Shown here: positions 19,916-30,575 of the stretch, piece after piece
Layout of the letters: each line of letters starts with the position of its first letter
Position numbering within the stretch: the stretch's first letter is position 1
Assembly: GCA_937132045.1 (NCBI GenBank)
Contig: CAKZNX010000306.1
Location: forward strand, 1 to 36,009
Length of the DNA stretch: 36,009 nt
Direction: 5' to 3'
Source: an uncultured bacterium
GTDB taxonomy: Bacteria; Armatimonadota; HRBIN16
The notes under the pieces: model-generated
Databases searched by the model: none
What the model was told of the DNA's origin: nothing
Seen by the model: the letters and a program-made list of their open reading frames with translations, nothing else
Made by a program: the position numbers and the translations under genes

Positions 19916-20860
19916 TCAAATGTCCCTTTTCTCGCTTCGCAGTCGCTCCAGTATCTGCCGCGCCGTCCTCTCAGCGCCTTGCGAAGCATCTACCCACTCG
20001 ATCTGCTTATCGGCGCGGAACCATGTTAATTGACGCTTGGCGAAACGCCTTGTTTCACGTTGTATCAGCGCTACTGCCTCCGAGAGCTCCATCTTGCCCT
20101 GAGCCACCTGCACCAGCTCCCCATAACCCAGCGAGCGCATGGCGGGCAGATGGGGGTCGTAACCGGCTTCGAGCAGCCGACGCACCTCCTCCAGCCAACC
20201 CTGCGCAATCATCCGCTCCACTCGTTCGTTGATGCGCTGATAGAGCAGTTCCCGAGACATGGTCAACCCGAACCGACGACACCTGCCCACCTCGGGGGGC
20301 GGTTGACGCCTCTGCCACTCCGAGATGGGACGTCCGGTAACCTGATACACCTCCAGCGCACGGATAATCCGCACGGCATCGTGGGGATGGATTCGCGACG
20401 CTGCGAAGGGGTCCACTTCCTGCAGTCGGGTGTACAGTGCTCGGCTGCCCAGACGCCTTGCTTCCTGCCACAGCGAGTGTCGCAGCGCCTCATCAGCCGC
20501 GGTGGGCGGTATCTGAAAGCCGTCCAGTAACGCCTTCACATACAACCCGGTACCACCCACCACCAGCGGAACCGCCCCACGTTGCCGAATCTGCCGGATC
20601 GCCTCTAGTGCCAGCTGCTGGAACCTCGCCACGCTGAAAGGTTCATCGGGACGGCATACATCGATAGCATGGAAGGGCACTCGCTGGCGTTGTTCCGGCG
20701 AAGGCTTGGCGGTGCCGATGTCCATCCCCTGATACACTGCCATGCAGTCCGCAGAGATAATCTCTCCGCCCAGTGCCTCTGCTAACAGGATGCCAACATC
20801 GGTCTTGCCGGTCGCGGTCGGTCCCACGACTGCCAGTACATCAGGCAGGAACTCACTCAT
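19916..20860 (-). CDS. miaA: tRNA dimethylallyltransferase
   Basis: VLAVVGPTATGKTDVGILLAEALGGEIISADCMAVYQGMDIGTAKPS; VVGGTGLYVKALLDGF; start trimmed to MSEFLPDVL at 20860. Confidence 0.96.
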   Translation of the reverse strand: MSEFLPDVLAVVGPTATGKTDVGILLAEALGGEIISADCMAVYQGMDIGTAKPSPEQRQRVPFHAIDVCRPDEPFSVARFQQLALEAIRQIRQRGAVPLVVGGTGLYVKALLDGFQIPPTAADEALRHSLWQEARRLGSRALYTRLQEVDPFAASRIHPHDAVRIIRALEVYQVTGRPISEWQRRQPPPEVGRCRRFGLTMSRELLYQRINERVERMIAQGWLEEVRRLLEAGYDPHLPAMRSLGYGELVQVAQGKMELSEAVALIQRETRRFAKRQLTWFRADKQIEWVDASQGAERTARQILERLRSEKRDI

Positions 20861-20968
20861 TGGGTCCGTGTTGCTCAAGGTTTGGCGGTCAGCAAACGCG
20901 CCTTGCAACTTGACAAGGTACAGAGCTTCAGTGCAACCCAGTATACCATAACGGCGGGCTGACCTGCA

Positions 20969-21162
20969 AGGTAAACGGGGGTGTTGGAAAAAGACTGAAC
21001 CTATCTCCCTATCCCCCTTCCCGACGCAAGACGGGGGAGTTCGGAACCTCTCGCCGCATCGGGGAGAGGCAGGGACAGGGGTGTGAAAGGGTTTCTCATA
21101 ACCGTTCTGGTCATCGATTCCTGGCTGGCGACAGGTTTTCACACAGCCTCAGGTAAACGGGG
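20969..21162 (-). mobile_element. MITE-like dispersed repeat, copy 1 (element about 20977-21150; flanking direct repeats AGGTAAACGGGG at 20969-20980 and 21151-21162)
   Basis: Reverse complement aligns over its whole length with 30401-30566; imperfect terminal inverted repeats (GGGGGTGTTGGAAAAA / GAGGCTGTGTGAAAAC); 12-bp flanking direct repeat. Confidence 0.8.
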
Positions 21163-21246: not shown

Positions 21247-23877
21247 ATGAAATCGGGAAGCACTTTTTTCCCAGAAGCGCTGCGTCGCAGGGTGCTAGAA
21301 AACGTGGAACGCTATGCATGGGCGAAGCAGACCGCTCAGCGCCTGGTGGAGACGGCACGCCCCTGGCGCGAGATGAGTGATGATGCGCTCTGGGGACTGA
21401 TGTTTGGTCCCTCCATCACGCGCGCATGGCATGTGTGGTCCGACGGATACTGCCCCGCCTGCAGGGGCGCGGTGCCCATGTACAACTGGCTGATAGAACC
21501 GCTCAAACACCCCTGGAAACTACGGTGCCCTCACTGCCAGATGCTCTTTCCTACCAACGACTTCGAGGCATACTACCGCTCTGGGCTGAACCAGCAGGGC
21601 GTCTTCGACCCTGCACGCGCCGACCGCTCGCTGCTATTCCACGCGCAACACCCTGACCCCATCGACCCCCTGCACCGGTTCGGCGTAGACGATGGCGAAG
21701 GTTACGTAGAGGGCAGCAACCGATGGCGATTCATCGGCGCATACCTGATTTTTGGGCAATGGAAAGGGCTGGTGCTGGCAGGCATCAGGAACCTCGCGGC
21801 GGCGTACCTCGTGACGGGCGACGCGGTATATGCGCGCAAAGCGGGCATCCTGCTCGACCGCGTGGCTGACCTCTATCCGCAGTTCGACCACATCACGCAG
21901 GCGTTTGTATACGAGACTGTGCGCACAGAAGGTTACGTATCCACATGGCACGATGCCTGCGAGGAGACCCGCCTGATGGCGATGGCATACGACCTCGTGT
22001 TCGACGCCCTGCGTCGCGATAGCCAGCTGGTGCAGTTCCTTACCGCCAAAGCGCGCCAGCACGCCCTGACGAACCCGAAAGCCTCCTTCACCGACATCCA
22101 CCGCAATATCGAGGAAGGTCTGCTGATCGACCCCCTGCGAAACGAACGCAAAATCACCAGTAACTTTCCCCGCACGCCCTTCGCGAAAGCGGTGCTGATG
22201 GCGGTGCAGAACTACTCGCGCAACCGGTCCGCCATCACCGAGTTGCTGGACCAGACGCTGAAGCAGGCAACCGCCGTGGATGGCACCACAGGAGAGAAAG
22301 GGCTGGCGAACTATACGGCATTGGCGGTTCGCGCCGTTGCCGAGCTGGTGGGCACGTTCGACCGAGCTGACAGTGGGTTCCTGCAACGGGCGCTCCGCCG
22401 ATTCCCGCTTCGAGACACTTTTCGGTTTCATCTGGACACGTGGGTCTGCGGTCAATTCTATCCCCACACAGGCGATACCGGTGTGGTAGCGCGGCGAACG
22501 ACGGAATATGCCGGCGTGAGCTTCCTGCGCCTGCCCAGTGGCGGCGACGGCATCTTCTCGCCCCATCCGGTCTTCTCGCCACCGATGTTCAGCCTTTTCT
22601 GGAGACTGTATGAAGCCACAGGCGATGTGGATTTCGTTCGCCTGCTGTACCTCGCCAACGGCAGGAAGGTGGACGGCTTACCGCACGACCTGCTGGCGGA
22701 CACCCCATCCGATTTCCAGAGGCAGGTGCAGGCGGTTATCGCGAAGCACGGTGCGGATTTCCGTCCGGAGAGCGTTAACAAGCGGCAGTGGTGTCTGGCA
22801 GTGCTGCGTTCCGGCAGGGGCGAGCGGTGTCGCGCCGTATGGCTGGATTACGATGCAGGCGGACAGCACGGGCACTTCGACGGCATGAATCTGGGTCTCT
22901 ACGCACACGGGCTCGACCTGATGCCAGATTTTGGTTATCCGCCGGTGCAATACGGCGGCTGGGGGTCGCCCAAAACGACTTGGTACGCCTCAACGGCAGC
23001 GCACAATACGGTGGTGGTGGACGGACGAACACAGCAGGCTGGTTCCGGCAAGTACACGCTATGGCACATCGGCGATGGGGTGCAGGTGATACGTGCGTCG
23101 GCTGCGGGTGTGTACGGCATTCCGCAGTACGAGCGTACGGTCATGCTGGTGGACGTCTCGCCGCAGGACTTTTACGTGGTCGACATCTTCCGGGTGGTGG
23201 GAGGCACCACACACGATCGGTTCCTGCACGGTACCTTTGGTAGAACGCACACCAGCGCACGCTCCAGCACAGCAACCGCTCCGGCGGAATATGCGCAGAT
23301 ACCCATGCGCCAGTTTGTGCGCCTCTCGCGCACAGAAGACAACGCGTCTCTACAGTTGGACTGGCTGGTGGAGGATCGCCTGAAATACCTCCCGCGCGGG
23401 CAACAGGTGACTCTACGATGCACTGACCTGACCTCTGCCAGCGAGGATTATCTCTGTGAGGGATGGGTATCGTTCTCCGGCTTTTCCGGCACCGAAGAGG
23501 CGTGGATACCTCGTCTGATGGTGCGCCGGCAGGGCAAGGCACCCCTCGCGTCCACGTTCGTGTGCCTGATGGTGCCCTTCGCGGGCAGAGGATGTCCTGT
23601 GGTGTCGGTTCGACGTATGCCGTTGCACACCACCGACGGAATGCCTTACGGCGAGGCGCACGTGGCGCTCGAGGTGACGCTGTCGAACGGCAACACCGAC
23701 CGAATAGTGCTGATGGATACAGAAAACCCCCTCAGACTCGAACCCGGTTTTGACAGAGTGCGCAGGGCAGTGCAGCGCGACTGGAACCTGACCGTGGCAG
23801 AGGAGGTCGCTTTTGAGCGGCTGGACGGCAGGAGCAGGCGTCTGATGCAGGTCTCCTGTTCAGGGGAGAGTCGCTGA
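21247..23877 (+). CDS. Heparinase II/III-family polysaccharide lyase-like protein with N-terminal CxxC pairs
   Basis: 876 aa; alpha/alpha-toroid-like N-terminal region; YCPACRGA...LRCPHCQMLFPTNDFEAYY; DYDAGGQHGHFDGMNLGLYAHGLDLMPDFGYP; AAHNTVVVDGRTQ; SD GGAGGGGA. Confidence 0.85.
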   Translation: MKSGSTFFPEALRRRVLENVERYAWAKQTAQRLVETARPWREMSDDALWGLMFGPSITRAWHVWSDGYCPACRGAVPMYNWLIEPLKHPWKLRCPHCQMLFPTNDFEAYYRSGLNQQGVFDPARADRSLLFHAQHPDPIDPLHRFGVDDGEGYVEGSNRWRFIGAYLIFGQWKGLVLAGIRNLAAAYLVTGDAVYARKAGILLDRVADLYPQFDHITQAFVYETVRTEGYVSTWHDACEETRLMAMAYDLVFDALRRDSQLVQFLTAKARQHALTNPKASFTDIHRNIEEGLLIDPLRNERKITSNFPRTPFAKAVLMAVQNYSRNRSAITELLDQTLKQATAVDGTTGEKGLANYTALAVRAVAELVGTFDRADSGFLQRALRRFPLRDTFRFHLDTWVCGQFYPHTGDTGVVARRTTEYAGVSFLRLPSGGDGIFSPHPVFSPPMFSLFWRLYEATGDVDFVRLLYLANGRKVDGLPHDLLADTPSDFQRQVQAVIAKHGADFRPESVNKRQWCLAVLRSGRGERCRAVWLDYDAGGQHGHFDGMNLGLYAHGLDLMPDFGYPPVQYGGWGSPKTTWYASTAAHNTVVVDGRTQQAGSGKYTLWHIGDGVQVIRASAAGVYGIPQYERTVMLVDVSPQDFYVVDIFRVVGGTTHDRFLHGTFGRTHTSARSSTATAPAEYAQIPMRQFVRLSRTEDNASLQLDWLVEDRLKYLPRGQQVTLRCTDLTSASEDYLCEGWVSFSGFSGTEEAWIPRLMVRRQGKAPLASTFVCLMVPFAGRGCPVVSVRRMPLHTTDGMPYGEAHVALEVTLSNGNTDRIVLMDTENPLRLEPGFDRVRRAVQRDWNLTVAEEVAFERLDGRSRRLMQVSCSGESR

Positions 23878-24014
23878 GGGTGCGAAAGTGCTCGCACCCC
23901 TCTCCCGACCTCTCCCCGAGGCGGGGAGAGGCGCAGGTTCTCCTTCCGTCGCAGGGAAGGGGCAGGGGGTTAGGTTGCCAGAAGACAACGGCGGCTCTGT
24001 TATGAAACACCCTC
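23876..24014. repeat. Copy 3 of the hairpin-rich repeat (core 23900-23980; outer limits uncertain)
   Basis: CCTCTCCCCG-agg-CGGGGAGAGG (23909-23931) followed by CCTTCC...GGAAGG and GGGGGTTAGG, as in copies 1 and 2; GAGGGTG-like left end and CACCCTC right end. Confidence 0.55.
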
Positions 24015-24022
24015 GGACGGAG

Positions 24023-24051
24023 TTGACATACCCCGACCAACCTGATACGAT
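24023..24051 (+). promoter_or_regulatory. Candidate promoter TTGACA-N17-TACGAT
   Basis: TTGACA 24023-24028, TACGAT 24046-24051, upstream of the PII-like gene. Confidence 0.6.
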
Positions 24052-30363: not shown

Positions 30364-30392
30364 ATTGTACTGTGCACTGAACGCAGAGTCAA
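30364..30392 (-). promoter_or_regulatory. murJ promoter TTGACT-N17-TACAAT
   Basis: Minus strand TTGACTCTGCGTTCAGTGCACAGTACAAT just upstream of MTQETHRV. Confidence 0.65.
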
Positions 30393-30575
30393 ATGCCCAT
30401 GAGGCTGTGTGAAAATCCGTCGCGATCCAGGAATCGACGAACAGAACCGTTGGTAAAAGTCCTGTCACGCCCATCTCCCTGCCTCTCCCCGAAGCGGGGA
30501 GAGGTTCCGAACTTCCCCTTCCCGCGTCGGGAAGGGGGTGGGGAGATAGGTATGGTCGACACCCTCAATGCCCAT
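30392..30575 (+). mobile_element. MITE-like dispersed repeat, copy 2 (element 30401-30566; flanking 9-bp direct repeats AATGCCCAT at 30392-30400 and 30567-30575)
   Basis: Inverted copy of 20977-21150; ends GAGGCTGT...ACACCCTC form a short TIR; hairpins CCTCTCCCCG/CGGGGAGAGG (30482-30504) and CCCCTTCCCG/CGGGAAGGGG; outer ATCTCCC/GGGAGAT. Confidence 0.85.

Follow-up and report, generated by a model that had tools for sequence, protein, structure and literature searches.

Two short, related intergenic sequences lie in opposite orientations in a 36,009-nucleotide stretch of bacterial DNA (the window), which is contig C306 of a 3.53-Mb draft genome (433 contigs, 99% complete). What are these sequences, and what determined the positions at which they lie? 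The host can be inferred to be a hot-spring-type bacterium of the order Fimbriimonadales (Armatimonadota), the order being deduced from the named genomes in which the closest transposases occur.

Two element copies and their flanks

The copies and their associated features are listed below. They are referred to as MITEs, for the reasons given in the next section.

20978 to 21150, plus strand: MITE copy 1, 173 bp, left end GGGGTGTTGGAAAA, right end TTTTCACACAGCCTC, boundaries set by comparing ~40 copies
20969 to 20977, no strand assigned: left target-site duplication (TSD) of copy 1, AGGTAAACG, its 9-bp length set by family comparison
21151 to 21159, no strand assigned: right TSD of copy 1, AGGTAAACG
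21000 to 21083, plus strand: C-rich double-palindrome module inside copy 1; relatives match only query positions ~23–107, without terminal inverted repeats (TIRs) there
23876 to 24014, minus strand: third, related, older element, 139 bp, with the end GAGGGTGTTTCATAA at 24000–24014
30401 to 30566, minus strand: MITE copy 2, 166 bp
30392 to 30400, no strand assigned: promoter-proximal TSD of copy 2, AATGCCCAT
30567 to 30575, no strand assigned: promoter-distal TSD of copy 2, AATGCCCAT

The first-pass annotation had described 20977–21150 as an inverted homologue of 30401–30566 that is bracketed by a direct repeat and that looks non-autonomous, there being no transposase in the window. Each of these claims held: copies 1 and 2 align in inverted orientation with a local score of 220 (shuffle maximum 54), a repeat search finds a single ungapped block of 139 nt that is 83% complementary, the direct repeat AGGTAAACGGGG is present at both 20969–20980 and 21151–21162 and no recognisable transposase was found in the window. 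The suggestion that 8–12 bp of the repeat could be a TSD was narrowed to 9 bp, AGGTAAACG, by comparison with other copies; the direct repeat at copy 1 is longer than this (an extra GGG) because the element itself starts with G's. The 9-bp duplication of copy 2 is perfect and that of the third element is no longer recognisable.

Most of the blocks that the annotation listed as shared between the copies come from the C-rich interior module, which is not specific to the MITE family. The module is an independent repeat found without element ends at many places in the genus and in other families of the phylum (loci L076–L104 are examples in congeners), and a version of it is carried by a 186-bp MITE in the congener G005 (L208). 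Interior similarity in other genera is confined to the palindromic module and was therefore not counted in support of the MITE. An RNA function for the interior was set aside, as the window contains no Rfam match and shuffled sequences fold as well as the RNA of copy 1 (z 0.44).

The MITE family and its partner IS

A BLAST search of the window's own genome returned 44 matches, defining a family of ~40 copies with a 176-nt consensus whose ends are GAGGGTGTTGGAAAA and TTTTCACACACCCTC. Placed side by side, the copies have common ends of approximately GAGGGTGTTGGAAAAAGACC...GGATTTTCACACACCCTC; a sister subfamily has the end GGATTTTTGAAACACCCTC, and further related elements share these ends only. 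The mean pairwise identity of full copies is 76%, and the family is therefore old. Where both ends of a copy are readable, the flanking 9-mers match at six or more of nine positions in 54% of cases, as against 2.6% of mismatched pairings, and perfect 9-bp duplications are seen at L002 (GATGCACCT) and at window copy 2 (ATGGGCATT). Taken together, these results identify the duplication as 9 bp long. The assemblies of this genome and of several relatives are fragmented and many of the genome's own copies lie at contig ends. At two loci (L060 and L064), TIR ends are found beside another dispersed repeat (GTCATTGCGAGGAGCGCAGCGACGAAGCAATC), in L064 again next to GTCAA.

Orthologous loci in congeners are empty at both window sites, with one copy of the target. 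At the copy 1 site, upstream of miaA, G003 has the single target copy CCCCGTAAACCTTGCAGG; at the copy 2 site, upstream of murJ, no element is present in G003, G009 or G006 (in the last of these the sequence reads GTAAACGGGCATTTGACA).

To find an autonomous partner, the genus was searched for GAGGGTGTNNNAAAA, and G005 yielded inverted pairs of ends 975–998 bp apart. These belong to near-identical ISs of ~1 kb with the TIR GAGGGTGTTC[GA]AAAA, in two forms: one of 1012 bp with an open transposase frame of 305 amino acids, and one of 989 bp whose frame is broken by a 23-bp deletion. The duplications around them are clear, mostly 9 bp with a few of 10–11 bp, and the IS and MITE ends agree over GAGGGTGT and diverge in the bases that follow. 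The transposase matches Pfam DDE_Tnp_1 (PF01609) above the cut-off (31 bits, E 2.4e-7) and has conserved D, D and E motifs (VDGTG, LVGDxLYG and RIEQVFGSVK), yet it passes neither the NCBIfam IS5 model NF033579 (transpos_IS5_2; 39 bits, cut-off 140) nor the IS4 model NF033592 (18.6 bits, cut-off 115). It is thus a divergent, IS5-like DDE_Tnp_1 enzyme that fails the IS5 family model. Amongst 201 genomes of the phylum it was found in this genus only, and in a scan of 85,000 species only in Fimbriimonadales or other Armatimonadetes or in unnamed MAGs. An AlphaFold model (L177, shallow alignment) had a mean pLDDT of 35 and was discarded as unusable. An IS256/Mutator partner, suspected from a TSD of 8–9 bp, was rejected, Transposase_mut (PF00872) being absent from 10 congeneric genomes.

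In the window's own genome, an intact partner element would be marked by ends of the type GAGGGTGTTTCAAAA or GAGGGTGTGTGAAAA. No intact DDE_Tnp_1 transposase is present there, merely a distant 138-amino acid relative or fragment and a sub-threshold match, and the MITEs are therefore orphans in this assembly. For the same reason, the enzyme that mobilised the window copies can only be inferred, from the shared ends, TSD length and target; that it came from this IS group, rather than from a lost close relative, is likewise an inference.

Several further observations concern the behaviour of the elements in G005. Five IS copies (L128, L129, L132, L136 and L137) have the 23-bp frame-breaking deletion in common, so that a defective IS has multiplied, presumably in trans. 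At L132, L134 and L136, which are different sites, a MITE and an IS are joined by the identical 9-mer tcgagctct, and at L136 a 9-bp duplication encloses the whole pair; the pair thus seems to have moved as one composite. Tandem arrays of elements with identical 9-mers between them are found at L141, L137 and L169; the shared 9-mers at L141 (ctagcaacc) and L137 (ccaccccct) are as expected if the same promoter-proximal site were reused.

Past mobility is shown by the family, its ends, the 9-bp duplications, the empty sites and the autonomous element in congeners. The sequences are short, non-coding and multi-copy, with common terminal inverted repeats, a target-site duplication and empty sites, and there is an autonomous partner with matching ends, in congeners rather than in the own assembly. 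All tests for membership of a MITE family with its IS are passed except proof of mobilisation, which in the absence of a transposition assay is inferred, and the family is classified accordingly. The MITE-like reading of the first-pass annotation was in this way supported by every one of its proposed tests that was run, namely a genome-wide BLAST (many copies, common ends, recurring 9-bp duplications), a search for empty sites and a search for an IS with matching ends. What the annotation missed is the most informative feature of the element, its position beside promoter -35 boxes.

Insertion at predicted promoter -35 boxes

All three elements in the window adjoin a predicted promoter, as follows.

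20964 to 20969, minus strand: predicted -35 box of the miaA promoter, TTGCAG, adjoining the element TSD and conserved in all 9 congeners
20940 to 20945, minus strand: predicted -10 box of the miaA promoter, TATACT, at an 18-bp spacer from TTGCAG and likewise conserved in the nine congeners
19919 to 20860, minus strand: miaA, downstream of this promoter, named by sequence recognition
30387 to 30392, minus strand: predicted -35 box of the murJ promoter, TTGACT, its first T being the last base of the TSD
30364 to 30369, minus strand: predicted -10 box of the murJ promoter, TACAAT, 17-bp spacer, conserved in congeners
24023 to 24028, plus strand: predicted -35 box adjoining the third element, TTGACA, at the same offset as in the other copies
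24046 to 24051, plus strand: -10-like TACGAT of the third element's adjoining promoter, 17-bp spacer

The same arrangement recurs across the family: the last base of the 9-bp target is the first T of TTGAC in a -35 box, and a -10 box follows after 17–18 bp. TTGAC lies at an offset of 7–9 from an end in 30 of 40 own elements when one mismatch is allowed (28/40 exact), and the promoter can face either element end (19 left, 10 right). Counted outward from the TIRs, offset 8 holds TTGAC at 21/50 ends in the own genome and 28/104 across the genus, with 10 more genus ends at offset 9 and only 0–2 at other offsets; because usually just one end faces a promoter, these counts represent most elements. 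The insertion position, approximately -44 to -36 relative to the predicted start, is thus fixed, with the proviso that the promoters are predicted from sequence and not mapped, although the tmRNA 5′ end fits.

The enrichment extends to promoter-like sequences beyond TTGAC itself. TANNNT is present at 16–18 bp from 20 of 22 insertion-site TTGACs in the own genome as against 9 of 40 intergenic TTGACs (Fisher p 1.6e-7), the figures for the genus being 32/41 and 15/80 (Fisher p 2.6e-10; the first count had 42 genus sites, 32/42, and the control run 41). The coding/intergenic mask used for this control is approximate and several of the target tests draw on the same loci, so that the p-values are not independent. 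Some ends without TTGAC also hold the canonical register, nine of 68 keeping a -10 box (at least 5/6) where the background is 0.3%. Copy 1, at miaA, is one of the nine, and the off-consensus -35 sites TTGCAG, TTGCTA, TTGCCA, GTGACA and ATGCCA all keep the register to a good -10 box. The same target is seen at loci whose transposases are just ~50% identical (L187 and L189). Not every site conforms: by our reading, five of 19 sites in G005 lack a recognisable promoter, and one of the five falls within a coding region, its target carrying TGGAC. Insertions that have a TTGAC-like flank but are not at promoters include L147 (TGGAC in a coding region) and L168 (TTGAC without a -10 box).

At murJ the own genome reads ATGGGCATT-[166 bp]-ATGGGCATTTGACT and G005 reads ACAGGTATT-[different 186-bp MITE]-ACAGGTATTTGACA. 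The MITEs being different, these are independent insertions at the same nucleotide in two species. In G004 (L204) and G001 (L203) another insert occupies the same site upstream of murJ, between a conserved GTAAAC and the -35 box, and it is possible that these are decayed elements. A further own copy (L011, 1448–1644) lies directly upstream of the promoter of tmRNA (ssrA, identified by ARAGORN), which has TATAAT ~12 nt before the gene and an off-consensus -35 box.

What guides insertion

We consider it very likely that these elements form a promoter-targeted IS/MITE group that integrates at approximately -44/-36 upstream of promoters. In this model, the MITE would have been mobilised in the past by a ~1-kb Fimbriimonadales IS with a divergent, IS5-like DDE transposase, whose cuts in the target, staggered by 9 bp, would always fall at the same place: the 9 bp between them would run up to and include the first base of a -35 hexamer in a sigma70-type promoter. 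Because 9 bp are duplicated, the promoter would retain its full -35 and -10 boxes and lose only its former upstream DNA, and the same site would remain available after insertion, which would explain the tandem re-insertions. That the position is chosen through recognition by the transposase of either promoter DNA or promoter-bound RNA polymerase/sigma is inferred. A bolder version has promoter-bound RNA polymerase guiding the transposase, which might touch sigma region 4, for instance, or follow DNA bent at the -35 box; the integration site would then be set where the polymerase footprint ends on its upstream side. Two features favour this version: the motif is asymmetric, lying to one side of the target whichever element end faces it, and the register is kept at weak -35 boxes. 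The guide itself is inferred, and we put this version at slightly less than even odds, somewhat ahead of the rival described next.

The most serious rival is that the transposase simply reads TTGAC beside its 9-bp target regardless of promoter function, the prominence of promoters then reflecting their content of TTGAC and the loss of insertions in genes. TTGAC is indeed the strongest common feature, and the few insertions flanked by TTGAC-like sequence off promoters (TGGAC within a gene at L147, TTGAC lacking a -10 box at L168) favour direct reading of DNA. Against this, and with the caveat of the approximate mask, a correctly spaced -10 box accompanies only 19–22% of intergenic TTGACs but 78–91% of insertion sites, and the off-consensus sites hold their register to a good -10 box. 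On balance we lean away from this rival without dismissing it. A second possibility is that insertion is untargeted and selection retains the harmless copies upstream of promoters. The own copies are old enough, at 76% mean identity, to have been filtered in this way, but selection cannot fix a distance to one nucleotide, the near-identical and hence young G005 copies have the same position, and independent insertions in two species share one murJ nucleotide; we regard this explanation as very improbable.

Two other explanations can be almost completely discounted. Were TTGAC..TATAAT part of the element, as an outward-facing promoter, its constant distance from the element end would be accounted for, but congeners without the element have conserved murJ and miaA promoters and the 9-bp duplication separates the element from the -35 core. 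The alternative that the family is a non-mobile REP/BIME- or terminator-like palindromic intergenic repeat, flanked by direct repeats through chance, draws support from the C-rich palindromic interior, which is widespread without TIRs. It is contradicted by the common TIRs, by 9-bp duplications far above the control, by the empty sites, by an autonomous element with the same ends and by the unexceptional folding of copy 1. The REP/BIME-like class, a palindrome with neither TIR nor TSD, is fitted by the interior module alone; the element has both.

Comparison with known systems places the partner IS near the IS5-type ISs, which it resembles in having a single DDE transposase (~305 amino acids here), a PF01609 match, a weak match to transpos_IS5_2 and a length of ~1 kb. 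IS903, an IS5-type element, makes a 9-bp duplication, as does the partner IS. IS5 itself uses short YTAR-like targets, whereas the partner IS has the TIR given above and a target fixed to promoter -35 boxes. Prokaryotic MITEs, including Correia/CREE, RUP, Chunjie and MITEAba12, have been reviewed (PMC10969869), and the present family shares with them its short length, lack of autonomy, intergenic location, TIRs and TSDs, tens of copies and mobilisation in trans (inferred here). Single-nucleotide targeting of a promoter edge was not found in the relevant passages of that review, and whereas Correia brings its own promoter, the family described here abuts that of the host. The yeast retrotransposon Ty3 integrates at Pol III genes in a narrow upstream window set by the transcription start apparatus (PMC8632968). 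Both systems use an upstream window and leave the gene intact, but Ty3 is an unrelated type of element and any link to RNA polymerase/sigma rests here on inference alone. Tn7 (attTn7) is similar in its safe-haven insertion at a strict position. A dedicated targeting protein directs Tn7 to one chromosomal site; the partner IS, in contrast, has one gene only and inserts at many promoters. No bacterial IS targeting -35 boxes was described in the literature searched, which was limited in coverage and consisted mostly of titles and abstracts, so that absence is unproven. Within that limited search, the choice of target resembles that of Ty3 more than that of any bacterial IS found.

Landing beside promoters to the nucleotide would be an unusually clear case of host-sparing targeting by a one-gene element without an accessory targeting protein. 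It would also provide a natural tool, each insertion marking a promoter to the base, and to our knowledge few promoters have been mapped in this phylum. Such a transposase could serve to deliver DNA to positions immediately upstream of promoters, and it opens a test of whether bacterial transposases read RNA polymerase at promoters. Guidance by polymerase, if true, would give bacteria an equivalent of those transposons that find their targets via the transcription machinery. For the host, the effect of serial insertion at one position is that many genes, murJ, miaA and the tmRNA gene included, have their upstream regulatory DNA replaced.
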